From Lepidurus packardi (lineage: Eukaryota; Arthropoda; Branchiopoda; Notostraca; Triopsidae), in contig JAKZAN010000001.1 of the NCBI GenBank assembly GCA_023053545.1, forward strand, positions 62,001-126,000: a stretch of 64,000 nt of DNA. Reading direction: 5' to 3'. The notes beneath the pieces are model-generated. The model was not told the origin of the DNA. It ran no database searches and saw only the letters and a program-made list of their open reading frames with translations. Below, one piece after another: positions 1-53,248 of the stretch. The first letter of the stretch is position 1; every line of letters starts with the position of its first letter. A program made the position numbers and the translations under genes.

Positions 1-2537
1 GGGACCAAAGTAGTCCACGCCTATGTTCGAAAAGGGTGGACTAAATGCCTCCAGGCGTTGTCGAGGCAAAGCCGACATCAACGGAACGTTCGGCTTCACT
101 CGATAACGTTTACAGGTGAAACAATTATTTACCATCTTGTTGACAGCCGCTCGTCCACCCGTTACCCAGTGCTGGAGACGTAGATCAGCGAAGGTCCGCT
201 CGGTTGATCCATGAGCGAGCCTTTCGTGGGCTTGTCGGATTAAGAGGGTGGTTAGCGGGCTGGTAGGGCTCAATAGAATTGGGTGCTTGACGTCGGATGG
301 GAGATCAGCGTGTTGGATTCTTCCACCAACTCGCGTTAAGCCTCCTTCGTCAAGGAAGGGGGTGAGCTTCAGAAGTTTCGAGTTACGCGGAAGCAGACGT
401 TCAGCCTTCAGGGCGGCATAATCAGACGAAAAAAGACGTCTTTGTTCCAGTTTGATGAACTCTACGGAAGCGTCTCTGCATTCGGCGACTGTCAGGGGCC
501 CCCTCAACACCGGAAACTTAGAAGGGCGCGAATTCTTGATAAAACGAAGAACCCATGCCAGGGTCCGCTTCAGTCTATGCAAGTCCGACGTGCTTCTCAG
601 AACTTCAAGCGGCTCACTCCGATCTATTGTAATGTTGGCTATCATCAACGGTAAAACTTCGGGCTCGGTGTTGTCAGGTTCGTCTTGAACTTGCGCGGCG
701 GGCCACTCTGGGGGCGGGCGCTGGAGGAAGGCCGGCCCGTTGAACCATCGGTTCGGTGGAAACCTGCCTCTAACCCTCGGGAACTGTCGTCAGCTGGGTT
801 CATCCTTCCCGGAACATGTTTCCACTGGCTGGCCTTAGTTAATTCCAGGATCTCGGTAACCCTATTGGCCACAAAAGTTTTAAATTTGCAGGTCTTCGAG
901 TAAATCCAACTTAAAACCGTAGACGAGTCAGTCCAAAAATGAATCTCGTCAAGCTTTAGTCTTAGTTCCGTGGAAGCCCTGTGGGCCATTCGGGCGGCTA
1001 GCAGGGATCCTCGGAGTTCGAGGCGAGGAATAGTAAGCTGCCGCAAGGGTGCCACACGGGATTTAGCTGTAACAAAGCTAGTTGTGATCTCGGTTGAGCC
1101 TGAGACGCGTAAGTAAGCTACGGCCCCAAAGGCAAGCTCCGACGCGTCAGCAAATACGTCAAGTTGGACGGAATGGGGGTTGAGCACGGGTTGCAGGCAT
1201 CGCGGGATAGTAACAGCTTCCAGTTTTCGGATGTCGGACAGCCAACAACTCCAACGTGCAGCTAGGCCTTCGGGAATTTCGTCGTCCCACTGCAGCTCTT
1301 GCAACAGGGTTTTGGCCGTCAAGGTGATTGGAACCAGGAATCCGATAGGATCAAACACGCTCGCCACAGTGCGCAGTATTTCCCGCTTTGTCGACTTCGC
1401 GGGCATATGCTTTACGCGGAATACAAAGCTGTCTGTCTCATCATTCCACCCGACGCCAAGAGTCCTTTCTACGGGCAGTCGGTCTAAATCAAGGTCCATA
1501 TTCGGGTCAACGCGGTCTTCAGCCGGGAAGGAAGCTAATGTTTCCGATATCATCTTGCATGTTGTGGGTGTAACTCCTAGTGATTCGGTCGTCCAAAAGG
1601 ACTTGACGCTCTCATGAAGGTCATCGACAGTTATGTTCATGATATGCCGCTTGGTGGGGAACACAGACTCGACTTGGACTGGTCCCCTCAGGCTCCATCC
1701 AAAAGGAGTAAACAGCGCGCGTGGCCCTCTGACTCCAGGAGGCGGTTTATCATCAAAATGAAGAGCTTCTGGTACGTCAGTGCCAATGAAAACGGTTACC
1801 TCGCCAGGCTCAGCTTGGTTCAATGGCAGATCTTGCAAGTGCGGCCAGACTTTCTTAAGATGGGGAATATTCCTCTTGCGGAAGGTCGATACCAGCGTCG
1901 GAACTGCCGTAGCTTCATCAGCTAAAAAGACGTGTTTCCCATCTAGCGAGGCGATAAGAAAATCCACCGTTGGGACCATCATGGAATCGCTCCCCTTGAA
2001 CGTCTTGAGGTCTGCTTCTTCCATCGGGCCCTTCAGGTTCAGTTTGCGGGCCATGTCTTGGTGGATAAGCGTTCCATCGCATCCGGGGTCTAGAAGGGCG
2101 AACGTGTCGATTCTTCTACCATTAGCTCGGAGTTGGACTGGTACGATACAAAGTAGAGACACCTTGCGGCGCTTCAGCCATGGAGGAGAGTCTTCGCTCT
2201 TGTGGCAGCTCACGTTGTTCACAGCAATGGAGTCTTGGCTAGATGTCGCTGGGATCTTGGCTTCGCCTTTTCTGGAGTACGTAGGGGGTCGGTGAAGTAA
2301 AGTGTGGTGCTTGGCTTTGCACCCGGCCTCTCCACAAACAGCCTTCGCAGAGCAATCCTTGGCCAGGTGTCCATCTCCCAAGCAGCGGAAACAAAGTCCT
2401 TTGTCCTTCGCTTGACAGGCTCGTTCTTCTGCCGACAGCGCGGCGAAGGACCTACAAACCGCAATTTCGTGCTTAGGCTTTTTACAATAAGCGCATTCAG
2501 AATTATCTTCGCGGCCAGTAGCAAGTACGTTGACCAC
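1..2537 (-). pseudogene. pol part of BEL/Pao copy A
   Basis: Visible parts on the minus strand are CCHC knuckles (Y-C-K-K-P-K-H and C-F-R-C-L-G-D-G-H), a protease-like motif (L-L-D-P-G-C-D-G-T), an A17-type segment (S-V-F-D-P-I-G-F) and an RNase H segment (V-F-A-D-A-S). An H2C2-type integrase start follows at 1-640. The same order recurs in copy B, which supports one shared source element. Confidence 0.8.
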
Positions 2538-4167
2538 CCTGGGGTCTTCGACTTCCGTGATCCGCGCTTAGATTTCGCCTTGTGGCTATCCTTCTCGTCG
2601 TCGGAATCGTCGGTATCGGGCAATGTGCGGACGTTGCTTGCAGACTCCACTTTGGTCTCCAGCCAGGAGTCGAAATCCAGAAGATGCGCAGGTCGTGGCT
2701 TGAGCCTTTCGATGTCCTCTCCCCATTGGCTCATCAGTGGCAGCTTGTCCTTCAGCTGTTGCACCAAAACTGTGGACTTGAACTCGTTGTCGTGACCAGA
2801 AGCGATAAGGGTGTCTGCGGCATTATGAAGCTCTTCGGAGAACCCTTCCAATGCCTCAAAATCGTTTTCTTTGAACTTGGCGTACTTCAGCGCGCTTCGC
2901 AAACAGGCATTCGTGACCTTTTGCGGGTGGCCGTATTTCCGGTGGAGCTTCTCCAAAGCTCTTCGGTAAAGCACCGGGTTGTTTAGAGCTCCCCGGACGG
3001 TTTTCCGCACCTTCGGGTCGAGTAATTGTCGGAGAACCGCCATGCGTTGGTCATCAGGTTCCAGTACGTCGTGGACCATGGACTTAAACGTAGAGATGAA
3101 CAATGGCCAGTCTTTAGGGTTCCCGGAGAAAGGCATGATGTCTATCTTCTGCATTTGTGCGGCCCTGCAGCTATGCGACGGCTTCGAAGGAGGTGTTTCC
3201 GAGGAATAAATCCAAGCCTCGTTTGGGGTTATGGGTGGCAAGGCAATCAGGTAATTCGTAGAAGACGGCACGCTTAAGGGCAGCGACGAGGTTACCATGG
3301 GCTGTTGATTCGTAGCAGTCAAGGCCGAGCTTACAGCAAGGTTAAGGACAGGCGGAGGATTTCCAACTGGATGGGGAATAGAGGTGTTGGGACTAACTTG
3401 CGTATTGGGTACAGGGTTCAAGGATCAAAGATGCAAGTGCTTCTCGATCAAATCTTGAAGCTCTCGTTGTTTCTTCCTCTTCAGCAACTCCTGCCGCTCG
3501 ATCTCAAGCTCCCTAAGTCTCCTCTCCTCAGCTGCTTCCTCCCTGGCATTCCTCTGGAGTTGGTTCAGCTCAAGCTCTGCTAATTGCTGTTCTTGGCGCA
3601 CAGCCTGGAAGAATGAGAGGTGTTGGTGCTACCGCTTGACATTTGCGAGCGTTGAGACGGGGCTATCGACGCCACTGTGGACGCTGCTGAGCTGCCGGCC
3701 CGTGAGCGAATATATTTGTCAATAGCCACATAGCAACTGTTGACTGAGGCTTCAACGTCAGCGATCCAACTTAAGTGGTCTTGTCCGAAAAGCATATGCT
3801 CAGCTTCCGCTTGGACAAGTCTTTCGTTGAGCTCTGTACATTCTTGAAGACGCTCTACGAGTTGCGTTCGGTAGTCTTTGATAAGCGACCGGGACGATTT
3901 TTCGTCGATTGCTTTGTGGATTTTGGTCAGAAGTCTGGTTGTTTGCGCCTTCGATTGGGTTCGAAGCGCTTTTACGACATGCGGTTCTTCAGGAACGCCA
4001 TGTTCTTCATCACTGGAATCTTCGGCTTGTCTACTTAAGATCTCTCTGGAAGGTCCGGGATGAGGAGGATCAGCCACAACACGACTTTCAGCGGGAGTGC
4101 GCTGATCTTCTTGTCTTCCTCCTGCGGGAAGAGCTCTCGCTGTCTCCGTAAGTGCGTTTTTCGACAT
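2219..4167 (-). pseudogene. gag part of BEL/Pao copy A
   Basis: This holds a charged, coiled-coil-rich N-terminal part (3580-4167) and a Pao-type gag core (2219-3421) with F-S-G-N-P-K-D-W-P, L-R-Q-L-L and K-Y-G-H-P stretches typical of that family. The product would assemble the element's cytoplasmic particle. It is treated as a fossil part and its reading is interrupted. Confidence 0.8.
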
Positions 4168-4201
4168 AATTACTTCAGATTCCCGGGTTTCGGCACCAAA
4201 A

Positions 4202-4480
4202 TGTTATATATGCGCAGGTTTTAAAACTTCCAAACAATCAAAACCCACTTCAACTCGACTATACTTTTGTCCGTCTCGTCTCGCTGTTCGTTCTCCGCCT
4301 TTCTTGTCTAGCGACTAAAAAAGGTCTGTCTTCCCTAATTCTTGAAATATCAAAAAACATAGGTCCGGTTTTCCCTTGAACCCATAAAACGTCACCCAGT
4401 CGAGGTCGATGTCCCATGAGTCAAGTCAAAGCAGGTCCAGTCCTTAGTCATCCCTTCCGGATTCGCATTTATCCGGAACA
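4202..4480 (-). repeat. LTR of BEL/Pao copy A (279 bp)
   Basis: The segment starts TGTT and ends AACA, the usual inverted LTR ends. It aligns along its length with 60727-61046, which is the LTR of copy B and is longer (320 bp). The primer-binding-type stretch lies directly inside it at about 4180-4200. On the outer side it abuts the 12-bp repeat array at 4481. Confidence 0.88.
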
Positions 4481-8560: not shown

Positions 8561-8718
8561 TCAAAATGTACCAATTTCATTATTAATGTGTTGTTGGGGT
8601 TGGGAACCTATAATGAGACATCGGTATTTACTTTAATACCTGATCCCCCCTTAAACCTCGTAAAGTATAGTTGCCTACTTCCAGCTTCCGCGCTTTTCTT
8701 TTCTGAGGTGTGGTCCAT
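8561..8718 (-). pseudogene. stray NLR first exon with a short novel second exon
   Basis: The minus strand carries the first exon of the NLR family (8679-8718, beginning M-D-H-T-S-E-K-K) and a GTAGGC intron 1. The splice acceptor is the same as in the full genes. The next exon (8561-8607) starts like NLR exon 2 but soon diverges to H-I-N-N-E-I-G-T-F and a stop. The read-through product would be 28 residues. No RHIM-like core and no NACHT domain follow. The same arrangement recurs at 53111-53248, so it predates the block duplication. Confidence 0.6.
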
Positions 8719-16104: not shown

Positions 16105-19100
16105 TTACACCGGGAACCAAAACTCGTACACATTTTCTTCTACGTACCTAATCCGGTATTCTAATTTTCGTTCTCTGAACACATGCATAGCATCACATGC
16201 TTCCTCCTTAGATAAGTCATGCAGCGTTAACGAAGTATTGCATTCATTGTCGTTTGCTTTTCCTGGCCATTTTTCAGCCTTGTCTGCAATAGCATGGAAT
16301 ATACCAATTGTTCCATAGTGCCGAAAGTGAAAAGATAACTTTTGAAGCATAGGAACACTTAAAACTATTTTCAACAAAGCCAAGACAATATTACTGCCTT
16401 TCAAAGCTTCCTCATCAATGGAAAATAGTGGACTTGAAGGATCAGGACCTATGGGGATCTCTGATAAATCAGATGTCAAAATTCCCAGGTTGACTCTCTT
16501 CATCTTCGGACAGCGTTGAAGGGCTTCTTGGATCAGATCCAGCATCAGAACTTCGCTGTTTGGCCAAAAGTTGTATCTTAATGACAAGTCTTCAATATTG
16601 TCTCCACTACTTCTGGTTAAGGCCTCCAACAACTGGTTGCCATAGAACTCCCTGTCATTGTTTGGAGTCTCTCCATAGATTTGGCCAATGGAGAGCGTCC
16701 GTAGTTTAGGTGCAGTTAGGTTCAACCAACTAAACAATTCGATTGGAAACGTGCAGAGCTTGATGGTCAATTCTTCCAGGTTTAGTGCCACATTTCTCCA
16801 AGCAAGGAGGAGCTCTTGGTTCTCATCAGCTGACGGAAGCAATCCAACAAGCCTCAGAGAAACGAACTCGAGATGAAGCCTTTTCAGACAGCATTTTTCC
16901 TTGACCGCGTACTTGCTGATTTCAGTAACCTGTAATACGAGTAAGAAGGAATTTCTTCGTATAAACAAGGGTGAATTGTGATTGAAATATTCATGAAATG
17001 GGTGGTGGCGCGAATATGAAAAGTCTCTAGGTAAGTGAAATTGTACAATTTTCTCACTCACGTCAAATTGGAAACTCATTCCGTAAAGCTTTAGCGTTTC
17101 AAGTTTACTGGCGAGCATCACTAGGTCTTCAAGCAGTACGTCTCTACTATTCTCGAGGTGCAGCGAAGTGAGACTGCACCCAGGCTCCGAAAGTCGTTTT
17201 AATATTGGGTTCAACACACCAGAACTAGAAAAACCTCGTTAGTTAATAGTTGTGATTACGTGGCTATTGTCCTTATACTGTAAGCTCAGGTGTTGCAAGT
17301 GAGACAACCACTTCTCAGCCAAGACTTCCGATAGTAGTGTTGTATCATAATCATACCCTGCAATAAGAATTCAAAGAGTAAGTTGGAGTGTGTTGCTGCA
17401 TCACCTTGGAGACGTCCACATGACATGATATCAACGTCTGCGATCCAATAACTACAGCGCTCCCTCGTACTTACCATCTAGATCGAACTCGAAACGCTTG
17501 AGACGGCAAGTTTCAGGAACCTCTTGCATGGCCTCGGTCACGGCCAGTATTAAATCTAAGTATTAAAAATAGCCAAAATAAAATCCAGATATTTAATTTA
17601 ACCTACCTCCTGAAGCGCTATGGAATCTCAATTGAACAGGACAGGAAGCAGATTTAAGAAGCTCCTGAAGACTGTGAACTAATTCTTGTCGCGTTTGGTC
17701 GCCAGTTATGCTGTATCTTATATCACATTCCAATTCATGAAGAACAACACCGGACTTGGACAAAGTCTGCAACACAACTGAAAAATTGTGTGCCTTAAAA
17801 CCCCCTCCCAAAAGAATGGAAATGGGGCAATCCTTGGGTGATGCAAAGAGTGCGTTTGTTCTTCCAGTGTTCTTCTTGCCGAGCTCTTCAACCAGTTGAA
17901 GCAGAGTTAGGCTAGGCTCAACTGAGCTACCTCTGAGAAATAACTCTGGTCCAGCTTCGGTGAACAGCTCGTTCGGCAGAGCATCTTTAAATTCGGACCA
18001 GGTACCAGCGGCACCATATTGGGTGAAATAATTTTTCATAAAGTATCTAAGACAGTAGGAAGGAAACTTAATGACACGGAAAGCGTCGACTAAACACCTC
18101 GACTCTCCCATTTCCATCAGGGAAACCGTAACTTCATGGAAGCTGGCCTTAAGCCGATACAGGTCAAGTAAGTTCTGTTCCAAAAGATTCCGGTCGGTTT
18201 CTCTACCAAGATAGTAGGCGGCTAGAAATTCTGCCGTGGTTCGATGAGGAACTTGGTAACGAGGAATCTTCTCTTTGGTGTCTTGGATCAGAACACCAGC
18301 CTCGATTAGTTGAGTAACTTTGACGTCGGTAGTTTCAGCCTCTTCTTCGTTTCCCGTTATATCAAATAAGGTGAAGCTCATGCTATAGGTTTTCAGACTG
18401 TTGATGCAAAGACGACCAAACTCTTGGAGGTAGCTTTCGTGACCTTTGCGGATCCGACTGCCGAGGATATTCATATTCCACACTTGGCCAGCTTTCTTTC
18501 TGGCTGCGCGGTAGAGGTTCCGGTTGATCATGGCAAAGTAAAGACCCGAAACAGTTGAAGGTAGTTCACGGTTCGGGCACTCGCTGACTAAGCAGCACAT
18601 CATGACGCAAAGCAGTGGACATTGAGCTAGTTCCTTGTATGGACTCTTGACTAGTACCTTCCGCATGAATTGCTTGAATTGCTCCAGACTGAGTCGTTGA
18701 GCTTCAGGCTCTAGTTCGTAAATTTCTTCAACATTTTTAAAATCATCGATACTAGGTAGGATCGAGTCATCCAGTTCGCTATCGGAATCCGACACTCCGA
18801 GCGGTCTATCGAAACAATTTATCACATCGGCTTTGGTTAAGTGACCTGCCTTGATGAAGAACTTGCCAACTGCCACTGCCACTTGTCTTTGTCCAAAGCC
18901 TTGCACTGTTACAAGCAAGGCATTACCTTTGACATGATCGGGTACATGTCCGAATCTCGATGTGAGCACCACGTGGCACTTCATCATGTCTTCTTTCTTC
19001 ATAATCCGATTTACCCCTTCCTTGGTCTTAGCATTCGCCTCATCGTACCCGTCCAGCAGAATCAGAAACTTTTCTGCTCTTTCACTCTCTAATACATCTT

Positions 19101-19922
19101 CTAGTAGCCATGTTTTTTTACCATTCAGTTTCATCTTCTTTTTGTAGACTTTTTCCATGTAACTCAAGATGTTTCCCTGGTTGAAATTTAGGAACAAATA
19201 GAGCCTTGATGATCCATGTTTAAGTAGACTTACATCTTCACCAACGGAGCCCAGTTTTACTACAAACAGTAGACTAAAAGGACTGGTGTACTTGGTATGA
19301 TCGTTTGAGTCGCTTTTAGACCAATCAGAAGCGATCTTAAGCATCAAGGTTGACTTTCCATAGCCGGCGTCTCCTTCGATCAGAATGCGGTAACTACCCC
19401 CTTTCGGAAAATGTTTCTGAAATGCCCATCGAGTGCGCTAGATGAGTTTTAAGAAAATGAAAGTGTAATTCTTACCTGACATTGTTCAAAAAGTTTTTCC
19501 ACGCCAAACTTAGTTGAGTCTTCTAAGGTTAGCTCCGTATAGAATTCGTCGATGTCCCAAGTGTACTCGGGGCACCACGGCAGTGGAGAAGCTTTGCACA
19601 AGGCAGTCGAATAGTACTCTTTCAAGTCTTCGCACTAGAAAAGCAAACGCATACAGTTGTTGACATTGCTACTATCAATGAATTCGAGCCTTTACTTCTA
19701 ACTTATCCATGTCCGCGGGTTGGTTTCCAAGGTTAGCGACACCACCAATGCAAACATTTTCAGCACGATTGACGGTAACTGGACCATTGAAGGTATTAGT
19801 AATGCTTTGTTGGGAACCTATAATGAGACATCGGTATTTAATTTTAACCCCTCATACCCCTTAAACCTCGTAAAGTATGGTTGCCTACTTCTAGCTTCCG
19901 ATCTTTTCTTATCCGAGTCCAT
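16105..19922 (-). CDS. NLR copy 1: RHIM-like motif, NACHT ATPase and LRR protein, complete eight-exon model (1,090 aa)
   Basis: Exons by GT-AG borders are 19889-19922, 19696-19817, 19476-19634, 17607-19416, 17475-17555, 17279-17357, 17062-17224 and 16105-16929. They total 3,273 nt and keep one frame to the stop. Residues 12-52 carry a short beta-rich segment with core V33-C-I-G36. The NACHT domain starts near 106: Walker A G-D-A-G-Y-G-K-S-T at 120-128, Walker B F-L-I-L-L-D-G-Y-D-E at 222-231 and a sensor-like L-T-S-R at 256-259. An acidic linker S-D-S-E-L-D-D, a helical region and C-terminal leucine-rich repeats follow. NLRs of this type are cytosolic nucleotide-dependent sensors that oligomerise, usually in immunity. 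The Walker A lysine is encoded upstream of the first in-frame Met of exon 4, so the spliced model is needed. The gene lies tail to tail with a LINE relic. Confidence 0.85.
19744..19755 (-). other. core of RHIM-like motif in NLR copy 1 (V-C-I-G)
   Basis: Exon 2 encodes T-F-N-G-P-V-T-V-N, four residues, then V-C-I-G-G and an N-x-G-N. RHIM cores are (I/V)-Q-(I/V)-G inside beta-prone, Asn/Gly-rich sequence, as in RIPK3 V-Q-V-G. Here Q is replaced by C. The placement before a NACHT domain mirrors amyloid signalling motifs at the N termini of fungal and bacterial NLRs. The call is by eye. Confidence 0.45.
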
Positions 19923-21578: not shown

Positions 21579-23830
21579 AGGATATTATGGACAAAATATA
21601 CGAAGGTGTTGTGTTTAGATCCGGAGCAGACCCAGCAGCAAAATTTCTCTCCGTTTCACTTTCCGAAGCTGGAGAAAAGATGGAGACTACCTTAATGAGG
21701 AGATGGATCCTCCTATGGTTACTATGATGGATCCTCCATTTGCAGACGAGTACGAAAAACATTAAAATGCCTTGCACCGTATCCCACGTGGAAATCACTA
21801 GTATCACGTAATTATTATCACAAAACATGCTCACTAGTCCCAGAACCCACGACACGCCCATCAAAACAAATATGCGAAAGGATGTGACCAGCCTTACAAA
21901 GAACCCCATTCAGTGAAATGTCTTTGTTTTAACTGCTAAGAGTTAAATGGTATACCTTTTGCTGACGTATTTCTTGGAGACGTTGGCTGCCTTTGAAATG
22001 TTATAGTAGCAAACTGTGGCCCAGATGAAGCTTATGATGTTAACAATTACGACTATTCCAAAATGACCCATGAGGAAGATGTACAAAATTAAAGTACCTT
22101 ATTGGAAGACAAATTGCAAATTAACTTAAAAGAACATCCCGTAGGTAGGCATTCTTTACTCGCTTACATGGAATGCATGCGTCTAGTTCAGGCGCATGAC
22201 TCAGTTGAAGAAGCCCCTCAAAAAGTAAGGGAATACCCCAAGCCAAGCCTGAGTTGAACACAAATCTTCGAGTTTGCTTTTTGACGCTTTGTTGATTAGT
22301 CTGGGCGTATCTTGATTTTTAATTAACAACTTTAGTATGAGAAGAAAATAAAAAGATAAGAACTTATGTTACCTAAACATGCTAAGTATATCCAGGGATA
22401 CTATTCCCGTCCATGTAATGGTCACGAAGAAAAAGTAGCGCGAAAAACCAACTAATAGTGAAATTCAGATTATTTGTTTGGAAAAGGCTTTTAGATAGGA
22501 GGTTACTATACGAAGAATAGGATCGGTAAGGGTCCAAAGGCTGGGGTATAGCCTGCAGGTCATTATGACGTACAATAGGCTCATAGAGCCCACTAAACTC
22601 ATTGTGTTCTTGCTGCTTTCTTTCTTGCGAAGTTTTTCCAAAAAAGCGTAGACCAGTAAAGTGACCGCCATAAAAATAGCAGAAATAAAATGTAACAAAG
22701 AGTAGACTACTAACCCACTCCAGTCATCTAGTGTCCTTCCCATTTCCGAACGTTCACTAAGTAAAGACATTTGAAAAGCCAGAAAAGTAGCGGAAATTCA
22801 ATATAACAAAGAGTAGACTACTAACCCACTCCTGTCATCTGGTGTCCTTTCCCTTTCCGGAGCTTCGCTAAGTACGGAATCCTGCCAGGAATGCATGTAA
22901 CCATCATAAATGAATGAACTGAAGCTTGAAAGTTTCTATAGCGCGTGTTCCGCAATCGTTACCGAATCTTTTCCATCCTTTTGAATGTCCATCTTGAGAA
23001 GTTCTTGGACGTAGGTAGAATTTAGCAAGTAGTAGGTATCAGTCGAAATGGGCTCACGAGGAACTTGTAGAGAGGAGTTACGATTCTTGGTTGGAACAGA
23101 CGGCAACGTGCAATTTAAAACTTGGCCAGCTGGACAACATTTCGGGATTGCTACTTTGGATTCTAAGCAAGCAACTACAATGCTTTGGCTATTTCTGTCA
23201 GAATCAAAGCAAACCTTGTGCATAGTGAAGGAGATATTTCGAGATATTTCGTGAATACCCGGTTGTCCCTTTGTTAACTTTAAGAATTTGTCCTTTTTCC
23301 TTTTAAAACTTTGCATGTCAGTATATTCTGGGCAGATTTTGCGATAAATGATTTGAAAGTTTTCCGTTTCAGAAATGTTGACGCTGCTTAATATCTTTTC
23401 GTTATTCATAGGTTCGTCATCTTGATGTCCATCTGCAACGAACTGAGGGAGTTTGCGTGAAGAATCCTCATCCGAATCGGACATGGAACCCATAGGACAA
23501 CACTTGCGGGAGCAATTTGTCGTATTGCATTCTGTTTGTATGGTAAGTTGATTTTTTTCCATTTCGGTTTCACGGGTTAATGCTAGCGGATTTACCTGAA
23601 AAGAATAGAATTTAATTTAAAGTTAACTTGATTTTAAAGTGATTTGTACTCCGGCACAAATTCAAGGACTTCATCAGAAGCATAACTTCATCAGAAGTAG
23701 AAGAATAACTTACAGCTTCTTTTGTAGAGTCACTGAAATAAAGTGCTAACACGGGGTTTGCTATTAAAATATAGATTAGTACAAAGAAGTCCGTCTTCCT
23801 TTCGCACTGTATTTTATCTGTATTTCGCAC
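21579..23830 (-). CDS. Methuselah-like class B GPCR (multi-exon; start and one join uncertain)
   Basis: A first exon (23714-23830) encodes a hydrophobic signal-like run F-F-V-L-I-Y-I-L-I-A-N-P-V-L-A and joins in frame to 23595. The ectodomain exon down to about 22970 is rich in Cys (N-C-S-R-K-C-C-P, C-C-P-A-G-Q) and N-glycosylation sites. Helices follow: TM1-2 at about 22510-22760 (V-Y-S-L-L-H-F-I-S-A-I-F), TM3 at 22382-22450, TM4 at 22152-22250, TM5 at 21957-22100, and TM6-7 at 21590-21909 (F-V-L-M-G-V-S-W-V-L-G and D-T-V-Q-G-I-L-M-F-F). This is the class B/Methuselah layout of a plasma-membrane receptor. No in-frame ATG precedes the signal segment (the frame opens at GTG), and a stop sits just before the TM6 exon, so the copy may be partly decayed. 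Confidence 0.6.
22676..22880. repeat. tandem partial duplication of the GPCR TM1 exon
   Basis: About 95 bases at 22676-22770 recur at 22783-22880 with changes. Both contain AACAAAGAGTAGACTACTAA. Both copies end in a TTACTTAG- or GTACTTAG-type acceptor, so two alternative TM1 exon starts exist. Confidence 0.65.
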
Positions 23831-27369: not shown

Positions 27370-28629
27370 ATGTGGTTGTGGACGCATATGTGGACACAAA
27401 GCACTACTAATACCTTCAGTGGTCCAGTTACCGTCAATGGTGCTGAAAATGTTTGCATTGGTGGTGTCACTAACGTTGGAAACCAACCAGTGGACATGGA
27501 TAAGTTAGAAGTAAAGGCTCGAATTCATTGATAGTAGCAATGTCAACAACTGTATGCGTTTGCTTTTCTAGTGCAAAGGCTTGAAAGAGTACTATTCGAC
27601 TGCCTTGTGCAAAGCTTCTCCACTGCCGTGGTACCCCGAGCACACTTGGGACATCGACGAATTCTACACGGAGCTAACCTTAGAAGACTCAACTAAGTTT
27701 GGCGTGGAAAAACTTTTTGAACAATGTCAGGTAAGAATTACACTTTAATTTTCTTAAAACTCATCTAGCGCACTCGATGGCCATTTCAGAAACATTTTCG
27801 GAAAGGGGGTAGTTACCGCATTCTGATCGAAGGAGACGCCGGCTATGGAAAGTCAACCTTGATGCTTAAGATCGCTTCTGATTGGTCTAAAAGCGACTCA
27901 AACGATCATACCAAGTACACCAGTCCTTTTAGTCTACTGCTTGTAGTAAAACTGGGCTCCGTTGGTGAAGATGTAAGTCTACTTAAACATGGATCATCTA
28001 GGCTCTATTTGTTCCTAAATTTCAACCAGGGAAACATCTTGAGTTACATGGAAAAAGTCTACAAAAAGAAGATGAAACTGAAAGGTAAAAAAACATGGCT
28101 ACTAGAAGATGTATTAGAGAGTGAAGCAGAAAAGGTCCTGATTCTGCTTGACGGGTACGATGAGGCGAATGCTAAGACCAAGGAAGAGGTAGATGGGATT
28201 ATGAAGAAAGAAGACATGATGCAGTGCCACGTGGTGCTCACATCGAGATGCAGACATGTGCCCGATGATGTCGAAGGTAATCCCTTGCGTGTAACAGTGA
28301 AAGGCTTTGGACAAAGACAAGTGGCAGTGGCAGTTGGCAAGTTCTTCATCAAGGCAGGTCACTTAACCAAAGCCGATGTTATAAGTTGCGTGGAAGGTCT
28401 GAAAAGTTTAAACAAGAGAACACTATATAACCCAGACACGAGATTTTCCCAAAAGTCGGAAGACCTACCTAGTATCGATGATTTTAAAAATGTTGAAGAA
28501 ATTTACAAACTAAAGCCTGAAGCTGAACCACTCAGTCTAGAGCAATTCAAGCAATTCCTACGGAAGGTACTAGTCAAGAGTCTGACTTACTTACTTTTAT
28601 ATATACCCCAATCACTTACCAAAACTTGA
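27370..28629 (+). CDS. NLR copy 3: short form with RHIM-like motif and NACHT, no LRR (379 aa)
   Basis: Exons 27370-27510, 27572-27730 and 27790-28629 join in one frame. The ATG at 27370 follows an in-frame TGA. Compared with copies 1 and 2, exon 1 and intron 1 are missing, and the upstream ATG now runs straight into exon 2, so residues 1-10 are new and the motif core V28-C-I-G31 stays near the N terminus. Walker A G-D-A-G-Y-G-K-S-T lies at 115-123 and a V-L-I-L-L-D-G-Y-D-E Walker B follows. Family similarity stops near 28582 (R-K-V-L-V-K-S). A short tail from flanking DNA ends at TGA. The NACHT helical region is cut and the LRR part is absent. It could be a dominant-negative or adaptor-like form, or a dead copy with a frame still open. 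Confidence 0.6.
27451..27462 (+). other. core of RHIM-like motif in NLR copy 3 (V-C-I-G)
   Basis: Reads T-F-S-G-P-V-T-V-N-G-A-E-N-V-C-I-G-G. It differs from copies 1 and 2 at N to S and R to G, both outside the core. Confidence 0.45.
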
Positions 28630-31043: not shown

Positions 31044-34000
31044 CTAGAGTAGTGCCCTCCCTTGTTTGTATATTTCGCGGGAGCTGTTTATGAAACTTTC
31101 AACTGCTGCAAAGATCTTCGGGTTTGTTAGAATGGTTTGCATATTGAAGTGAACTTTTTCTTTCGATAGTTTTTGAAGAAGGATTGCTCTTGGTTTGTTT
31201 AGCCACCTGCAATGGTAGAGAATGTGTTTGAGGTCTTGAGAACTTTGAGCGTAGCACGGGCAGAAAGGGTTGTCAGTCTTCTTTATACGATGGAGAAAAG
31301 CCAAGGAAGGATAGTGTGAACAGCGAAGTTTTATCAGGGTATAAATTGTGTGTCTGTTTATGTTTAATTTGCAAATGGGTGAGGATTCAGGAGTAATTCC
31401 TAAACTTAACAATGTTGAAGTTTTTTTAGTCCAATTTTCCACCCATTTTTGTTTGAATATGCTTTTAACTGTTTTTGGGATCTCTTGGGTTTCCCGATTA
31501 CAGTTAAACTGGGAGACCAATTGTTCGATTCGATATGAGCAAGTTGCGTATGAGGAATGACGAGGAGGATCCATGTTTCGGAGGTCTGCTGCATTTCTTG
31601 TTAAACCGAATCTAATCAGCCTTTCTTCGACGGCCAACTTCAGTGGAGGGATTCCAGTCTCTACTTCTAGGGTTGATGTTGGAGACGTTTTAAATGCTCC
31701 GGATATTATTAACAAGGCTTGGCGATGAAGGTATTTTAAAGTGGGGGATTTTTCGAACTTGAAGTTTGACCAGGCTGGTAGGCCGTAAAATATCTTAGAA
31801 TAAAGTGTAGCTAAAAGCAGAGATCTCAGCTGGTTAGTTCTTATAGCTGGAATATTATGGGACAAGTTTCGTATTTTCAGAATAATAAAATTTCCTTCGG
31901 CTGCAAGTCGATTAACATGCGATTTCCAGGATAGCTTTGTATCAAATAAGAGGCCAAGATAACGAACGTGGGGTCTTGGGATGATGGTGATATCACCCCA
32001 TGTAAGGGGCGTATCGTCAGGGTATCTTTTCTTTGAGAAATGTATCAGCTCTGTCTTGCTTTGACTGAAAGTGAGGTGAACACTAAGACTCCATTTCTCA
32101 AGTGCTTTCAGGGCATTTTGAAGCATCCTGATATTCACTTTCCCAGATGATCCGCTGATAGCTAAAAGTAAGTCATCAGCGAAAGCCTGCACACGGATGC
32201 GTTTGCTTTTGAGAAGTTTTAATGCTCCATCTATATATGTGACGAACAAAATTGGTGATAGGGGTGATCCTTGAGGGAGTCCTTTGCTGACATGAAAAGT
32301 TTGGCTCCTGTGGTTACCATGCTGGACGTAGATTGTGCGATCTGCTAAAAAGTTTTGAAGCCAATCTGCGACGTAACTTGGAACCTTTTTCTTTTTCAGT
32401 ATTTGGATTAACTTTCTATGATTAACATTATCAAAGGCTCCTTCAATGTCCAATAGAAGCGCTGTTGTAGTTTGATGTTTGTCGAATCCATTTAGGATTT
32501 GATTACTCAGGGCAAGCATAGCATCTGTGGTCGATTTCTTTGGACGAAAACCCCACTGATAGTCAGAGAGAAGCGATTTTTGTTCCATATGATCTAATAT
32601 TTTTAATGCAATCGTTTTTTCTAAAACTTTTCCTAGTGTGGAAAGTAAGGTTATGGGGCGGAAACTCTTATGTGTTTTATAGTCTGCCTTTTTGGGTTTA
32701 GGAACAGGGAGCACTTTTCCGATTTTCCAGGCGGTAGGAAAATACGAGTATTTTAAGGAGGCGTTAAAAATATTTACCACTATATTTCCGATTACTTTCC
32801 AGGTGTTTTTTAACACTATAGGCTGTATGGCATCATCTCCTGGTGCTTTAATATTAGGTAAAGCTCGCACGAGTGTTTTGAGCTCCCGCCAGGATATTTC
32901 TGGATATCTTTGCTGTCTTCTGAAATTGCATTTTCTTACGTTCTGATAGTTCGAAGTTTGAGTAGCTGAGAAGAACTTTTGCGCCAAAAAATTTAGTTTG
33001 TTAATTTCGTCCTCGAAAACGTCCCCTTGTTGATTTAACAGTTGTTCCAGGCTGTTTTTCGTTGTTTTTTCACGGTTTGCTCTATCCAATCCCCAGAGTA
33101 TTCTGTTGTCAGGAGTTTTTAGTTTCTGTTCCCAATATAAATTTTTTGCTACACGGCATTTGCTTGTGTACAAATTTCTCATAGTTTTCCATCGGGCTTG
33201 GTCTTGTACAGTTCTTGAATTTTTATAAATCCTTAGGCTTTTAGCTGTTTCTTTCCGGAGGTTTGCTAGTTCTTTGGACCACCAGGGATTTTCTCTTTTG
33301 GAAAGATTTGTTTTGGGGATATTAAGTTCCATTGCTTTATGTAGTGCTTGCGTTAGATTTTTAACTGTGTCGTCTAATTCCTCGGGGCCCGATATGTCAT
33401 GATATTTTATTTTACTTTTTTTCAGTTCCTCATTGAGAGTATTGTTTAATTTAATCCAGTCCACTTTATTATAGCTCCATATCCATGATTTAATTGATTC
33501 CTTATGGACATATATTTCTATTATAATTGCTTCGTGGTCCGATTGGTTGATAAAATCTGGGCTTTTAAAAATGGAGTGTCCGACGAAAGGTAGGCACTGG
33601 GTTGTAACAAACGTTAGATCTAAAGTGGATGAATTGCCTCTTTCGTTCAAGAAAGTAGAAAAGTTATGTTCATTTAAGATGGTCAAATTGTGGGTTGTGG
33701 TAAATTCGAACAGTTGGGTGCCTGGGATATCCGGGCTATGGTCTTCCCAGGCCCAGTGGTGAGCGTTCATGTCTCCACTGAAGATAAGACGTGGTGAAAT
33801 TTTTGAATATTTCTCCCAAATTTCTTGTAGTAATTTTTCTAAATCTTGGGTGAATCGTCTGTATACGCCGATTACTATAAATTCTGGGCGGTTATGACCT
33901 GGGAGTATTTTGATAACCGAATAAAGTTCATTTGTTTCAAGAATTTTCATATAGGAGGTATCCTGGTTTTTGAAAGTTGCTATCCCCTTATATTCGCCAG

Positions 34001-34205
34001 CTGGGGAATAGGTTACAAAGTTGCGAAAGGTTTTGCCAGGGGATAAGTTTTGTGGGGGTTCTAAGATAAATACGGCTTCAAAGTCACAATCGCTGGATAA
34101 ATTTATAGTTTCTTGTAGTTGCTGAAAATTTTTCCTGATATTGTGGATAAATATTTTAATCGGTTTATCGTTCATTTCAAATTGGTTATTGATTGTGATG
34201 ACCAT
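31044..34205 (-). CDS. J1 ORF2: endonuclease and reverse transcriptase (1,053 aa)
   Basis: The protein nicks target DNA and reverse-transcribes the element RNA. The APE-type endonuclease is at the N terminus: I-L-E-P-P near 48, G-D-M-N-A-H-H-W at 144-151 and a later S-D-H-E-A. Reverse transcriptase blocks follow: S-F-R-P-I-T-L-L-S, G-F-R-P-K-K-S-T, L-L-L-D-I-E-G-A-F-D, G-L-P-Q-G-S-P-L-S-P and the catalytic F-A-D-D near 675. A C-terminal C-P-C...H...C cluster closes it. Length and order fit Jockey-clade ORF2. All catalytic residues that I can place are present. Confidence 0.92.
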   Translation of the reverse strand: MVITINNQFEMNDKPIKIFIHNIRKNFQQLQETINLSSDCDFEAVFILEPPQNLSPGKTFRNFVTYSPAGEYKGIATFKNQDTSYMKILETNELYSVIKILPGHNRPEFIVIGVYRRFTQDLEKLLQEIWEKYSKISPRLIFSGDMNAHHWAWEDHSPDIPGTQLFEFTTTHNLTILNEHNFSTFLNERGNSSTLDLTFVTTQCLPFVGHSIFKSPDFINQSDHEAIIIEIYVHKESIKSWIWSYNKVDWIKLNNTLNEELKKSKIKYHDISGPEELDDTVKNLTQALHKAMELNIPKTNLSKRENPWWSKELANLRKETAKSLRIYKNSRTVQDQARWKTMRNLYTSKCRVAKNLYWEQKLKTPDNRILWGLDRANREKTTKNSLEQLLNQQGDVFEDEINKLNFLAQKFFSATQTSNYQNVRKCNFRRQQRYPEISWRELKTLVRALPNIKAPGDDAIQPIVLKNTWKVIGNIVVNIFNASLKYSYFPTAWKIGKVLPVPKPKKADYKTHKSFRPITLLSTLGKVLEKTIALKILDHMEQKSLLSDYQWGFRPKKSTTDAMLALSNQILNGFDKHQTTTALLLDIEGAFDNVNHRKLIQILKKKKVPSYVADWLQNFLADRTIYVQHGNHRSQTFHVSKGLPQGSPLSPILFVTYIDGALKLLKSKRIRVQAFADDLLLAISGSSGKVNIRMLQNALKALEKWSLSVHLTFSQSKTELIHFSKKRYPDDTPLTWGDITIIPRPHVRYLGLLFDTKLSWKSHVNRLAAEGNFIILKIRNLSHNIPAIRTNQLRSLLLATLYSKIFYGLPAWSNFKFEKSPTLKYLHRQALLIISGAFKTSPTSTLEVETGIPPLKLAVEERLIRFGLTRNAADLRNMDPPRHSSYATCSYRIEQLVSQFNCNRETQEIPKTVKSIFKQKWVENWTKKTSTLLSLGITPESSPICKLNINRHTIYTLIKLRCSHYPSLAFLHRIKKTDNPFCPCYAQSSQDLKHILYHCRWLNKPRAILLQKLSKEKVHFNMQTILTNPKIFAAVESFINSSREIYKQGRALL

Positions 34206-35577
34206 CCCTGGTGCAAGTTCCTTTTGCTGCCAGGTTCTTTGTGTTTTCTTGGGGGTTTTTTGGTCCTCTTTTCTTTATTTCCTCCGCTCGAATAAGGCAA
34301 ATTCTATCGTAAGATGCGTGACTACCCTGGCAATTTGCGCATTTAAATTGGCTGCTTTGGCACTCCTTGGTTGAATGTTGCTCGCTTGCACACTTGGCGC
34401 ATTTACTGGATCTGCTTGTACACTTTTGTGCGAAGTGGCCATACGCTTGACAGCGAAAGCATTGGATGACCAGGGGTGGATGGGCCTCTTCAAGTTGAAC
34501 TGTTCTATTGAAGGCAAATAGGGCTCCTACCTTCAGTAGCGTGTTTTTTTCCTCCTGGGAGTTGCAAGTGTACATGATAGATCCATATGCTTTGTCACTG
34601 GTTGGGTTCAGCCATTTAATTTGATTTGGCGAAAAGGTAATTTCTAGGATTGAGTTTTTCCTTGTCAAATGTTGGCTAATTTCTGTTTCTTGTTTGTCTT
34701 TCGGCAGTTGGTGGATAACGATGTTAAGATTAGGGCGATGTTCAATTATTTTAACCCGACCGAGATTTTTCAAATTTGCAGTTTGGATGGCAGTTCCTGC
34801 CTTTATTTTGTCCTCTTTGGACTTGAAAGTGATGAAAAGCTTTCCTTCTTCCTTCTTTGTGGCCAGGACTGGGCTTGGTAAGCTTGGTTCAATTTTTGCC
34901 AAGTCTTCGTCGATGAGCTCAAGTAATTCCTTTCTCGGTATGGTTTTTCCCCATTTTTCTGGATCTTCTTGCTGGATGATCAATATTTCTTCAGGGAGTG
35001 TGGATTTGGTTGGTTTTGGGGTGTTAGCCCGAGCTGTATTCCCTAGTTGATCTGGAGCGAGGTTTGTGGTCCGAGGAGTTTTTTTTCGGATAGCTTCTGA
35101 CCAGGTTTCTTTCACCTGTGTTGGGGTCTCTTGAGAGCGGTTCATTTTGTGGAGTTCATCTTTAAGAGACTGAACTTCCTCAGTTAAGGAGATAATTTGT
35201 CCTATAAGCAGATCTTGATTTTCCTTGAGGGTCTTGTTTGATTCAATTATTATGGTTTGGTTCCCGTGCAGCAATCGGATTTGCGATAGCAGAAGATCGA
35301 GGGTTTTGGAGTGGTATTCCTCATCTGAGACTGAATGTTTACGGGAAGTTTCTTCGCGCATAGGAGACATTGTTCTTTTCCGGGATTGAGAGTTTTTTTT
35401 GTGACGACAGTCAGGACACGTTGTAGCCAGGTGGTGGTCTTTTGTAAAGCTTTCGCTACACATTGTACAGCGAAGTATGAGCGGTGGGTTTTTAACTTGG
35501 CTTTCAACCCGGTTGGCAAGGTCACCAGGTTCACCACGTGTGCCCTGCGCAAGGCAGGGCACTGGCTCCCCGTCCAA
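34186..35577 (-). CDS. J1 ORF1: gag-like nucleic-acid-binding protein (463 aa or longer)
   Basis: Near the N terminus is a C-T-M-C...C-P-D-C pair. A predicted coiled coil follows at about 80-150, then a basic middle domain with V-I-H-Q-L-P-K-D. Three CCHC knuckles lie near the end: C-F-R-C-Q-A-Y-G-H, C-A-K-C-A-S-E-Q-H and C-A-N-C-Q-G-S-H. The product would coat the LINE RNA. The position given as start is TTG, and the frame is open for about 39 more codons upstream, so the true start may be lost. Confidence 0.85.
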   Translation of the reverse strand: MDGEPVPCLAQGTRGEPGDLANRVESQVKNPPLILRCTMCSESFTKDHHLATTCPDCRHKKNSQSRKRTMSPMREETSRKHSVSDEEYHSKTLDLLLSQIRLLHGNQTIIIESNKTLKENQDLLIGQIISLTEEVQSLKDELHKMNRSQETPTQVKETWSEAIRKKTPRTTNLAPDQLGNTARANTPKPTKSTLPEEILIIQQEDPEKWGKTIPRKELLELIDEDLAKIEPSLPSPVLATKKEEGKLFITFKSKEDKIKAGTAIQTANLKNLGRVKIIEHRPNLNIVIHQLPKDKQETEISQHLTRKNSILEITFSPNQIKWLNPTSDKAYGSIMYTCNSQEEKNTLLKVGALFAFNRTVQLEEAHPPLVIQCFRCQAYGHFAQKCTSRSSKCAKCASEQHSTKECQSSQFKCANCQGSHASYDRICLIRAEEIKKRGPKNPQENTKNLAAKGTCTRDGHHNQ

Positions 35578-35699
35578 TTTGATAGGGGCTTGAGCATAGC
35601 TCGTTGCCTCTTCTTTATTGACTATTTCTGTTTGTGTTACATAGGCTTTCGTACCAGGTATATTATATGGAGAAAAAATGTCATTTGATTAAAAGGAAC

Positions 35700-38600
35700 T
35701 TTTAAATAACGCATTTGTTATACTTTTATTTTAAAGTTTTAAGATTTTTTTTGCGGAATTGATATAATTGGTGATTGGGATTGAGGTTTTTTGGTTAGTT
35801 AAGATTTGTTCGGGTTTGAAATGTAGTATTGCTTTGACTTAGCGTTCTAAGTAAGATGGCTCTAGGTTTGTTTAACAGTGGGCAATGAAAAAGTATATGA
35901 GTTAATGTTTGGCGGAAGTAGTTAGTGCAAGGACAAATCATGTTAGAGGTTTTTTTAATCCGAAATAAATATGATTTTGTGGGGAAGTGTGTTGTTCTTA
36001 ATTGGATGAGTGTAGATATGATTTTGTGTGCATGATTAGATTTGCAAATAGGTTTTGAGTAAGGATTGATGTTTAAATCGTGGAGGGGAGAGATTTGTGT
36101 ATTCCACTCTTCTGTCCATTTCAGCAAAATTATTTGTTTAATTGATTTTTTAATGTCTTCTTGTTGGAGTTTTTGAAGAGGGTTTTGTTTTTTTGTCATT
36201 TCGATAAAGAGTGAGCATGAGGTATACCGTTTATGTATGGGAGTTGAAGTGATTACGGTGTTTGTTTTGTGGGCAAATCTTAGAATTCTTTCTAATTGTA
36301 AAAGATCCAATGGGGGTACCCCTGTTTCTATCTGTAGAGCTGAAGTTGGGGTGGTCCTCAGAGCACCAGTGATGAGAAGGAGTGCGTTTCTGTGGAGTGT
36401 TCTTAAGGTTGGAAATGAAGAGAGTTTAACATTACTCCAAGCAGGTAATCCGTAAAGTAATTTGGAGTAAAAGATGCTTAGAACTAAAGTTCTTAATTGA
36501 TTAGTTTTTATAGATGGAAGGAAGTTAGTTAATTTTTTTAGTCTGGTTAAGATATAGTGGCCTTTTGAGGATAGGTGGGCGATGTGTTTTTTCCAATTTA
36601 ATTTTGAATCGAATATAATTCCAAGGTAGCGCACTTCATCTTTTGGAGGAATGATTTCTTGTCCCCATTTAAGTGGTAGATTTTGTATAGTTCTTTTCCT
36701 TGAAAAGTGTACGAGTTCAGTTTTTGTTTTCGAGAAAGTTAGTTTTACATGTTCACTCCACTTTTCTATGTCTTTTAGTGCTTTTTCGAGGGTTTTGATA
36801 TTACCTTTTTCTGATTTGCCCCTGATCAAAAGAAGTAAGTCGTCCGCAAAAGCCTGGATTGTTAATCTTTTACTTTTGATAATTTTCAATGCATCGTCAA
36901 TGTAGATTAGAAAGAGGAGAGGGGCGAGCCTTGAGGAACGCCTTGTTTTAAATGGAAATTTTGACTTGTGTAAGGGCCGTATGTGCTGTATCCTGTTCTA
37001 TTATCTAAGAAGCTCTTAAGCCAGTTGATTAGGTTGATAGGGATCTTTTTCTTTCTTGCCTTTTCAAGTAAAACTGCATGGTTGACATGGTTAAACGCTC
37101 CATGAATGTCTAGTAGAAGGGCCGTGGTAATTTTACCTTTGTCAAAACCATGAAGGATATTATCTGAGAAGTTTAGCATAGCATTTACAGTAGATCTTTG
37201 ATTTCTAAATCCCCATTGGTTTTCTGATAGGATATTTTTTTGTTCTAGGTAGTCTGTGATTTTTTTGGCTATGCATTTTTCTAGGATTTTGCCAAGATGA
37301 GATAGTAGGGCGATGGGACGAAAATTATTGTGGGAGGAATAGTCATTTTTACCTGGTTTTGGTATTGGGAGAATTTTGGTCGATTTCCAGGCTTTAGGAA
37401 AATAAGATAATCTTATGGATGAATTAAATAGTGCAGTTACAGCATAACCAATGGATAGCCAAGTCTTTTTAATGAGTATTGGTTGTATATTGTCTTCGCC
37501 AGAGGCTTTGAAGAGGGGAAGGTTTTTAATTAATTCTGATAGTTGTTCGTAATCCAGAAGAGCGAAACTTGTTTGTCTAGTTATGTATAGATGGTCAAGT
37601 TTATGTACCTGTTTTTGTACAGTAATTTGAGGGATTGTGGTGATCGGAGCTGGTAGATCTAACATTTTTTGAGCTAGAAAGTCTAATTGTCAGTAATCTG
37701 TTTAAAAGATTTTCCTGTATCATCTAGTAGTTGGTCTAATGAGTTTTGGTTTGCGTTGGATCGAAATTTGTGATCTAATTTCCAGAGAATTCTAGAGTCA
37801 GGAGTGTTCATTTTTAGTTGCCAATAGTTCGCTCGAGTTTGACGACATTTCATAGTGTATAAGTTCCTAGCATCTTTCCAAGTTCTTTCATTGTTTTGGG
37901 TTGGTGACTTTTTATACAATTGTAGGTGTTGTGCTGTTAGTTTTCTAACGAGGTTTAGATCTTTTGTCCACCAAGGACTTTTCTTTCTCGTTGAATTGAT
38001 TTTTGGGATATACTTGCTGGCTGTATCGGTAAGGAGTTTAGTTAAAAGTTGTGTGGAAACATCTATTTCCTTGGCTATTTCCTTGAAAATCATTTGTTTT
38101 TATTATTTTCTATTAGTTCTGATAAGGTGTTGTTGATTAGTTCCCAGTTGGCCAGTTTATAGTTCCATTGTTCGGGTCTATATTGAACAAAAGGGGCTTT
38201 GATTTTTAGGAGGATAGCTTGATGATCAGATTCGTTTAGAAAATCAGGGTTATCTAGAAGACGAAGGTGAAGAAGGTGGGACATTTCAGAAGAAGCGAAA
38301 ACTAAGTCTATTGTGGAGGATTCGCCCTTTTCGTTCATGAATGTAGGGACATTCCATTTATTTAGGAGGATTAAGTTTAAGGAATAAGTGATAAAATCGT
38401 ATAGCTGAAGGCCAGGTTTATCCACTTTTTTTGCCTCCCAGTGCCAGTGATGGGCATTAAAATCGCCACAGATAATTATGTAAGAATTTATCTTTTCTAA
38501 TTCCTTCCAGATTTCAGTAAGGAGTGATGAGACTTCATTTGTATGTCTTCTGGAGATTGTAACAAGAATTATGGGGAGATGGTTTTTGAATGATATTTTG

Positions 38601-39217
38601 GTTAGAGAGTAAAGTTCTCGAGATATTAATATTTCAATGTGATGGGCTGAATTATCTTTGAAGCTAATAGTACCAATATATGAAGAGTCAGGTTTAGTGG
38701 TTTGGAAGTTTGAAATTGTTGTAAAGTGAAAATTAGTTGGAGGTTCGAGAATAAAAGCTACGTCAGAGTTGTGGTTGTGTGCTTCACGCAGTGTTTCAAA
38801 AAGTTGATTCTTGTTTTTTCGGATATTATGAATTAGAATATTGGTGGAATGAGAAGAAGAGGAATTACATCGAGTTTGAGACAGGAGGGGTTTTGGTTTG
38901 GCTTGTTTTGAGGTTAACTGGCGGCTTTTTTGATAGCTGCTATTCTTGATGGGCACGAGTGATCGAAGGCTGTATGGTTACCTCTGCAGTTGGAGCATTT
39001 TAAGCGGGCTCCCCGTCCATCTGCCTGATAATCTAGCCAATTAATCCAAACCAGTGAAACAAAAAACAAAAGCTGAAAACAGTGTAACTTTTGAGAGTCT
39101 AATGGGATCTTTCCAGATTAATCCGTTTCTTAACAACAGTGATATGGATTTCACAGAAAGACACCTCACTTTCACAGAGCGATTTGACACACGTCCGACC
39201 AACAGGTCTTCTGTCAC
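35700..39217 (-). mobile_element. Jockey-clade LINE J2, broken, with 5' untranslated region
   Basis: Endonuclease (38090-38956, G-D-F-N-A-H-H-W-H-W) and reverse transcriptase (F-A-D-D-L-L-L-L near 36850) pieces lie in several frames, with shifts near 38090, 37670 and 36900. ORF1 is mostly gone: its first codons (M-D-G-E-P near 39022) run straight into its last zinc knuckle (L-K-C-S-N-C-R-G-N-H). About 190 bases of 5' leader extend to 39217 and include a downstream-promoter-like GGACGTGT. The 3' end meets J1 near 35700 without its own poly(A) run. Confidence 0.8.
39189..39196 (-). promoter_or_regulatory. DPE-like internal promoter motif of LINE J2
   Basis: The minus strand reads GGACGTGT about 20-30 nt from the inferred 5' end. 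Jockey, Doc, F and I elements carry an RGACGTGY-type downstream promoter element at about +28, so the match supports a full 5' end at 39217. Confidence 0.45.
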
Positions 39218-40990: not shown

Positions 40991-41159
40991 TGTAGGGAAC
41001 GATAGGGGAACCACCACCTTGCTGTTTGTTGTGTTGTTAATTGGTTGTCTTAACGCTGGGCAAACGTCTACTCGGGGAAGGGTATAAAACACCGATGTTC
41101 CCAGTTAATGGGCAGTAGAGCACAGACTTGAATACAAGCCAGAAAACTAAGCCGTGACA
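40991..41159 (+). repeat. LTR of nested Gypsy-like fossil (about 169 bp)
   Basis: It starts TGTAGGGAAC and ends CCGTGACA, with a TATAAAA-type stretch at about 41082. Ends are inferred from the TG/CA rule and the adjoining primer-binding-like site, since no second copy is available for comparison. Confidence 0.6.
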
Positions 41160-53110: not shown

Positions 53111-53248
53111 TTATTAATGTGTTGTTGGGGTTGGGAACCTATAATGAGAATCGGTATTTACTTGAATACCTGATCCCCCCTTAAACCTCGTAAAGTATAG
53201 TTGCCTACTTCCAGCTTCCGCGCTTTTCTTTTCTGAGGTGTGGTCCAT
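53111..53248 (-). pseudogene. stray NLR first exon, second copy
   Basis: Exon 1 (53209-53248) encodes M-D-H-T-S-E-K-K as in the full genes. The acceptor at 53138 leads into the same diverged exon 2 as at 8561-8607. It belongs to the duplicated block. Confidence 0.55.

Follow-up and report, generated by a model that had tools for sequence, protein, structure and literature searches.

The NACHT-LRR genes of the arthropod DNA analysed here (a stretch of 64,000 nucleotides, hereafter the window, corresponding to C1:62001-126000 of a 108.6-Mb genome in 344 contigs) carry at their N terminus a short motif exon that is real and more widespread than the initial annotation had recognized. The best single reading of this exon 2 is a cryptic-RHIM (cRHIM)-like tag, and the main rival to this reading is a passive leader. 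With slightly less than even confidence, we propose that exon 2 is a cRHIM-type N-terminal signalling tag shared by a multigene family of arthropod NACHT-LRR proteins, which, once spliced to the NACHT exon, would act in immunity through amyloid stacking and in partnership with an IMD-type protein.

Three copies of the NLR gene and two remnants were delineated in the window:

19889-19922, minus strand: exon 1 of copy 1, 34 nt with an ATG start, from sequence and splice sites
19696-19817, minus strand: exon 2 of copy 1, the RHIM-like motif exon, class A, encoding (S)SQQSITNTFNGPVTVNRAENVCIGGVANLGNQPADMDKLE
19476-19634, minus strand: exon 3 of copy 1, the NACHT linker, CEDLKEYYSTALCKASPLPW...
17593-19416, minus strand: NACHT exon of copy 1 (PF05729, E 1.3e-12)
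16105-17238, minus strand: LRR-like open frame of copy 1, with an in-frame TAA just before it
58347-58386, minus strand: exon 1 of copy 3, 40 nt
58154-58275, minus strand: exon 2 of copy 3, motif exon, class A, from sequence and joined frame
57934-58092, minus strand: exon 3 of copy 3, from sequence and joined frame
55988-57874, minus strand: NACHT exon of copy 3, open frame
54534-55412, minus strand: LRR-like open frame of copy 3, from the open-frame list
27397-27510, plus strand: motif exon of copy 2, class A, with an in-frame ATG a few codons upstream and no separate exon 1
27572-27730, plus strand: exon 3 of copy 2, from sequence and joined frame
27790-28629, plus strand: shortened NACHT frame of copy 2, an open frame of 286 aa
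53133-53248, minus strand: remnant made of exon 1 and the first part of a class-D-like motif exon (SQPQQHINNEIG), with no NACHT frame close behind
8602-8718, minus strand: another such remnant, with exon 1 followed by a class-D-like motif exon that is broken, in a closely similar duplicate of the stretch at 53133-53248

The three 5′ introns of copy 1 are all bordered by GT/AG, and the joined exons remain open and read MDSDKKRSEARSSQQSITNTFNGPVTVNRAENVCIGGVANLGNQPADMDKLE, then the linker, then QKHFPKGGSYRILIEGDAGYGKS. Exons 1 and 2 together supply 52 codons, that is, everything ahead of the NACHT linker; exon 2 including its split codon encodes SSQQSITNTFNGPVTVNRAENVCIGGVANLGNQPADMDKLE, with the core peptide NTFNGPVTVNRAENVCIGGVANLGN placed directly before the linker. 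Copy 3 has the same layout and identical exon phase, and in copy 2 the motif comes straight after the in-frame ATG (MWLWTHMWTQSTTNTFSGPVTV). Related exons are thus present in all three copies, as had been claimed from the sequence at the outset. The additional claim that the motif appears only upon splicing of a 34-base first exon holds for copy 1, but neither for copy 3, whose first exon has 40 bases, nor for copy 2, which needs no exon 1. The TAA that precedes the LRR-like frame of copy 1 is located at 17239-17241 (minus strand), near a CTAAC...TTTTTCTAG acceptor-like stretch, and represents either a tiny intron or damage.

The NACHT domain of copy 1 is recognized by PF05729 with 48.4 bits against a cut-off of 26.7, and the first 105 residues of the protein match no Pfam family at E values up to 10, hence our statement that no CARD, PYD, Death or TIR domain is found at this N terminus. 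In this respect the initial annotation, which had suggested a NACHT gene that does without CARD, PYD or TIR domains, is supported. The LRR-like frame at 16105-17238 has no Pfam match; its AlphaFold model, of low confidence (pLDDT 55), displays an alternation of strands and helices, and a Foldseek search with this model returned TIR1 on top (E 4e-4), with NLRC4, NLRP3, NOD2 and ribonuclease inhibitor at E 0.01-0.07 in a list that also contains unrelated folds. Since the NACHT model is unusable (pLDDT 31) and the LRR model reaches only the value given above, structure contributes little to the argument. The host had been taken for a crustacean; that it is an arthropod is borne out by 150 scored matches to Chitin_bind_4 among 266 candidates in the genome, a cuticle-protein family that we regard as characteristic of arthropods. 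The window is otherwise dense in retroelement-like frames, located at 645-4203 (minus), 31044-38977 (minus), 41132-48463 (plus) and 61153-63452 (minus). The three frames that were scanned contain a Pao-type peptidase (645-2567), a reverse transcriptase with an endonuclease (31044-34274) and a zinc knuckle (41132-42316), and by eye the remaining ones resemble these. At 22936-23616 (minus) lies a frame of 226 residues with Cys-rich stretches, for which Pfam gave nothing at E 0.001.

When the linker and NACHT sequences were searched against the genome, 82 matches were obtained, several per gene, and the 5′ side was read for the best 30 of them (L009-L038; L015/L016, L021/L022 and L029/L030 are among the duplicates in this set). 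We distinguish seven classes of motif exons, A to G in our own grouping, at the same position. Class A (NTFNGPVTVNRAENVCIGGVANLGN) is found at 13 of the 30 loci with the tetrad VCIG; class B (NIFNGPFNVHGADGVSVGGNVNIEG) at three intact loci with VSVG, and additionally at L023, where it is broken before the tetrad; class C (SIGIANINNCKNVSVGSFNNVGN), also with VSVG, and class F (NTGTMSIYSEGGSVNIGNNFEMHG), with VNIG, at one locus each; and class G (VAVTKIGSVANVGN) at two. Class D (INNEIGKIKLQASRVLNVGGNIGN, tetrad LNVG) occurs together with class E at three loci (L025, L029 and L030), while class E exons of the FGRVNITNSTVHIGTRFENQGN type stand alone at two loci with the tetrad and at L031 without it, the class E tetrads being VHIG, VYIG or VYMG. 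Overall, [VIL]-x-[VIM]-G is kept at 23 of the 30 best NACHT loci, some of them duplicated, is replaced by T-K-I-G at two, and is absent from five (L020, L034, L035, L023 and L031); L020, L034 and L035 bear a nine-residue leader, MAGDLDKFK, in place of the motif exon. Classes that are different at most other places retain the tetrad and the alternating stretch before it, and classes A, B, C, E and G end in a common tail, VD[IMF]D[KT]LE or LD, ahead of exon 3. The core recurs as V-H-I-G, V-S-V-G and V-N-I-G in divergent members, so that the outcome named in the initial annotation as speaking against it, a loss of the core in more distant relatives, was not encountered. Conservation was judged mainly on members whose NACHT segments are 71-97% identical to that of copy 1, together with the class E exons of L047 and L052, which lie beside NACHT pieces 66 and 70% identical.

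Searching the genome with the class A peptide gave 25 matches without a stop in the matched stretch, and the class E peptide gave 14 without internal stop, two of which are pieces of one broken exon. By eye, classes A to F can be read with identical exon phases. A script covering phase-1 acceptors and phase-0 donors, and therefore leaving room for other phases, assigned a donor to 31 of the 32 distinct exons and a candidate acceptor to 22 of 32, in some cases inside the exon.

The initial annotation had interpreted exon 2 as RHIM-like. A core of the V-x-[IV]-G type in divergent members and the broader [VIL]-x-[VIM]-G at the 23 loci mentioned above support this interpretation, and several observations run against it. 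The expected profile support did not appear: PF12721 had no match among nine exon peptides (one each of classes A, B, C, D, F and G, two of class E, and L031) at E values up to 10 in a scan run with speed filters on, which drop most weak matches, and across the genome it gave two weak matches, both below the cut-off and outside NLR exons. The canonical RHIM tetrad is (V/I)-Q-(V/I/L/C)-G (PMC9444067), and the canonical Gln is missing from every class, with C, S, N, H or Y at the second position in classes A to F. However, PF12721 did not match the IMD-like protein of the same genome either, so the Pfam result says little and the profile may be blind to the cryptic type. The cRHIM of PGRP-LC, PGRP-LE and IMD, described in fly and mosquito without the canonical Gln (PMC9496462), is a closer comparison than the canonical motif. 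Defined as a tetrad without Gln, a cRHIM-type core is present at the same 23 loci, and class E includes V-H-I-G, the tetrad given for PGRP-LE and IMD of Ae. aegypti (PMC9531809).

Bare tetrads are common. The pattern [VIL]-x-[VILM]-G was counted 745 times in 317,773 background residues, or about 0.09 per 40 aa, in a set that is mostly six-frame translation rather than real protein and excludes the IMD frame and frames with NLR exon signatures. The tetrad alone is therefore weak evidence, and on this count we did not accept every V-x-V-G as a RHIM. Its presence in most members of a family whose exons are otherwise divergent is, at the level of sequence comparison, stronger evidence than the tetrad itself. 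Profile searches did not unite classes A to G: a class E profile reached class B at E 8-10 only and class F at 13, and an A/B/C profile reached class G at E 0.07-0.15 and class D at 3. Some automatic alignments placed tetrads out of register, that of F in one and those of E4 and F in another. Searches of the PDB returned nothing for class E or class C, a single match, to a bacteriocin (E 0.44), for a profile of 12 exons, and unrelated chains only (E 0.5-1.5) for the IMD motif and the IMD-like protein.

Substitution patterns indicate that exon 2 evolves fast. The class A motif exon has a pN/pS of 3.36 over 11 distinct sequences, with few differences, more of them changing the amino acid. In exon 3 of class A the value is 0.49, calculated from 7 distinct sequences, all of 159 nt, with L061 and four loci of 165 nt omitted. 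Comparisons between classes give pS 0.40 and pN 0.30 for A versus B and pS 0.29 and pN 0.35 for A versus B2, and seven class E exons have a pN/pS of 0.67. In class E, T17 and V18, the latter being the first tetrad residue, are constant despite synonymous changes. From these values, constraint on exon 2 is local at most. Rapid change would be expected of an arms-race module as well as of a loose leader, and such weak purifying selection counts against a strong form of the tag claim.

Exon class does not follow NACHT similarity. On NACHT segments of about 200 residues, identity is 97% between L011 (class C) and each of L012 and L014 (both class A), 96% between L024 (A) and L026 (B), and 95% between L010 (B) and either L014 or L015 (A). 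Conversely, the class B exons of L026 and L027 differ at one of 49 residues though their NACHT segments are 82% identical. As different classes sit on NACHT segments that are 95-97% identical, the motif exon behaves like a swappable module. Such exchange would be expected of an output module, but the same pattern would result from gene conversion confined to the 5′ end. At L025 and at L029/L030, a D and then an E motif exon stand in tandem before one NACHT; this arrangement looks like a possible pair of alternative first modules. The tag-less receptors L020, L034 and L035 could, by analogy, serve as dampers in the manner of fly PGRP-LF, which has no RHIM and acts as a damper (PMC9496462).

The genome has 12 Death-domain places, and 10 of them (all but L088 and L090) were read by eye for a similar motif. 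Among these 10, a motif of NLR-like shape was seen in L089 only. L089/L092, on contig C5 and thus away from the window, encodes a 217-aa protein, with three exons joined by eye, that combines an acidic N terminus and GNMIIVGDINISKAGVLHLGTSYTIN with a weak Death domain (PF00531, 20.8 bits, E 4e-4, below the cut-off of 22.6), with the motif GDINISKAGVLHLG upstream of the latter. Its layout is that of IMD, which makes it a candidate IMD-like gene and the candidate bearer of a motif matching the NLR tag; in the window frames, no second gene with a matching motif was seen in a profile scan whose best 45 matches were read. A pattern derived from the NLR exons, G-x-hydrophobic-x-[VIL]-x(4,6)-[VL]-x-[IVM]-G, is present in 12 of 16 NLR exon peptides (the exceptions being E5, E7, G and L031) and at two places in the 317,773 background residues. 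The IMD-like motif fits it only if the third tetrad position is widened to admit L, as do 178 of 20,000 IMD shuffles, a count that is optimistic because the motif was chosen after looking; the pattern match is consequently a lead. With three NLR profiles, 156, 1599 and 846 of 5000 IMD shuffles reached the score of IMD itself, pairwise alignments of NLR exons to IMD gave uncorrected p values of 0.023-0.56 over 20 tests, and a genome search with the IMD motif found itself alone. Because neither the profile nor the pairwise comparisons are significant, homology is not claimed. For 7 of 10 NLR exons, the best local alignment (gap cost 11, taken regardless of significance) falls within IMD residues 73-99.

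These observations lead us to a tentative mechanism. Upon ligand recognition, the NACHT domains would oligomerize and bring together tags made of a strand (G-x-hydrophobic-x-hydrophobic), a turn, the tetrad [VL]-x-[IVM]-G and a G/N-rich tail. The clustered tags would stack into a cross-beta seed, and the seed would then template an adaptor further down the pathway through a motif that matches the tag. The most plausible adaptor is the IMD-type Death-domain protein of this genome, which would relay the signal as in insects. For D. pulex, a single Imd but no PGRP is listed (PMC2685406); in 2015 its Imd pathway was described as either non-functional or activated in another way, and the question of its input was posed (PMC4833078). 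Here, a search for the PGRP-type Amidase_2 domain, of a kind that could miss a domain split over short exons, gave one match in the genome, at C344:35062-35397 (minus) in a 405-residue frame, which may stem from bacterial or phage DNA included in the assembly. NLRs bearing tags of the cRHIM type would close this gap. The broader scenario, in which an expanded NACHT-LRR family took over IMD input in branchiopods lacking PGRPs, with exchangeable cRHIM-type tags as its only output and tag diversity setting the adaptor or pathway, strikes us as unlikely in its entirety. If true, it could account for the triggering of IMD in crustaceans that possess Imd and lack PGRPs, and with tags of this kind on a family of animal NLRs the NLR amyloid-signalling mechanism would reach into animals. 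Our search of the open-licence literature, mostly at the level of listings, turned up no RHIM or cRHIM described on an NLR of an arthropod or another animal.

The reading that competes most seriously with a signalling tag is that exon 2 is coding but forms a flexible Gly/Asn-rich leader under little constraint, in which V-x-[IV]-G persists by descent or arises by chance and no amyloid is formed. We consider this quite possible, if somewhat improbable. The weak purifying selection on exon 2, the frequency of bare tetrads, the absence of RHIM profile support and the failure of profiles to unite the exon classes all speak for it, as does the nine-residue leader at 3 of the 30 loci, which suggests that a receptor may manage without a tag. 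Against it stand the tetrad and the alternating stretch kept among classes that diverge elsewhere, the difference in whole cassettes between near-identical receptors and, in class E, a published cRHIM tetrad (PMC9531809).

A tag that functions without amyloid, as a protein-binding motif, is improbable to our minds. It could be a docking peptide for another partner or for the product of a gene on contig C4, around 11329845-11330081 (L084) and an upstream frame, whose exons encode a CARD (PF00619, 2.4e-12) and a Death domain (PF00531, 2.2e-06) and which we presume to be a possible adaptor of the RAIDD/CRADD kind. This gene lies about 2-9 kb from NLR-family exons (C4:11321243-11327630); that neighbourhood is the sole link, and the NLR N terminus has no CARD or Death domain found that could be a docking site for the C4 adaptor. 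Least probable of all, and in our estimation very much so, is that pseudogene decay has overtaken many copies, some of those in the window among them, and that their motif exon is no longer made. The shortened NACHT frame of copy 2, the TAA before the LRR frame of copy 1, the solitary exon 1 fragments at 53133-53248 and 8602-8718, the D exon of L029/L030 that terminates in a stop, the lost donor of L033 and the stops inside 12 of the 30 best NACHT matches, some of which result from intron crossing (L021/L022), do point to decay. Yet 18 of these 30 matches have no stop, the NACHT frames of copies 1 and 3 exceed 600 codons with the splice sites of all 5′ introns intact, and the pN/pS of class A exon 3 (0.49) argues against decay. 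The cRHIM-type tag remains our preferred reading.

Set against known systems, the family resembles animal NLRs of the NLRC and NLRP types and shrimp LvNLRC in its NACHT domain and LRR-like C terminus, but has a tag of about 40 residues where no CARD, PYD or Death domain was found. With the canonical RHIM of RIPK1, RIPK3, ZBP1 and TRIF it shares a V/I-x-V/I-G tetrad in a Gly/Asn context, whereas it lacks the Gln and the Pfam match and belongs to another protein architecture. The organization is reminiscent of the amyloid motifs of fungal and bacterial NLRs (PP, sigma, HRAM, BASS), which likewise comprise several families of short N-terminal motifs located directly before NACHT or NB-ARC in place of a folded effector domain. 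In those systems the effector with the matching motif is usually the next gene, whereas none was seen among the matches read from the window frames; the present case is in an animal. The insect cRHIM of PGRP-LC, PGRP-LE and IMD is carried by proteins other than NACHT-LRR receptors, on which the tag described here is N-terminal, and the resemblance of this tag to the IMD-like motif of its own genome is not significant by profile or pairwise comparison. Nevertheless, both have a short hydrophobic tetrad that closes with Gly and does not contain the canonical Gln, the V-H-I-G of class E is the very tetrad given for Ae. aegypti PGRP-LE and IMD (PMC9531809), and an IMD-type gene is found in the same genome as the tagged receptors.
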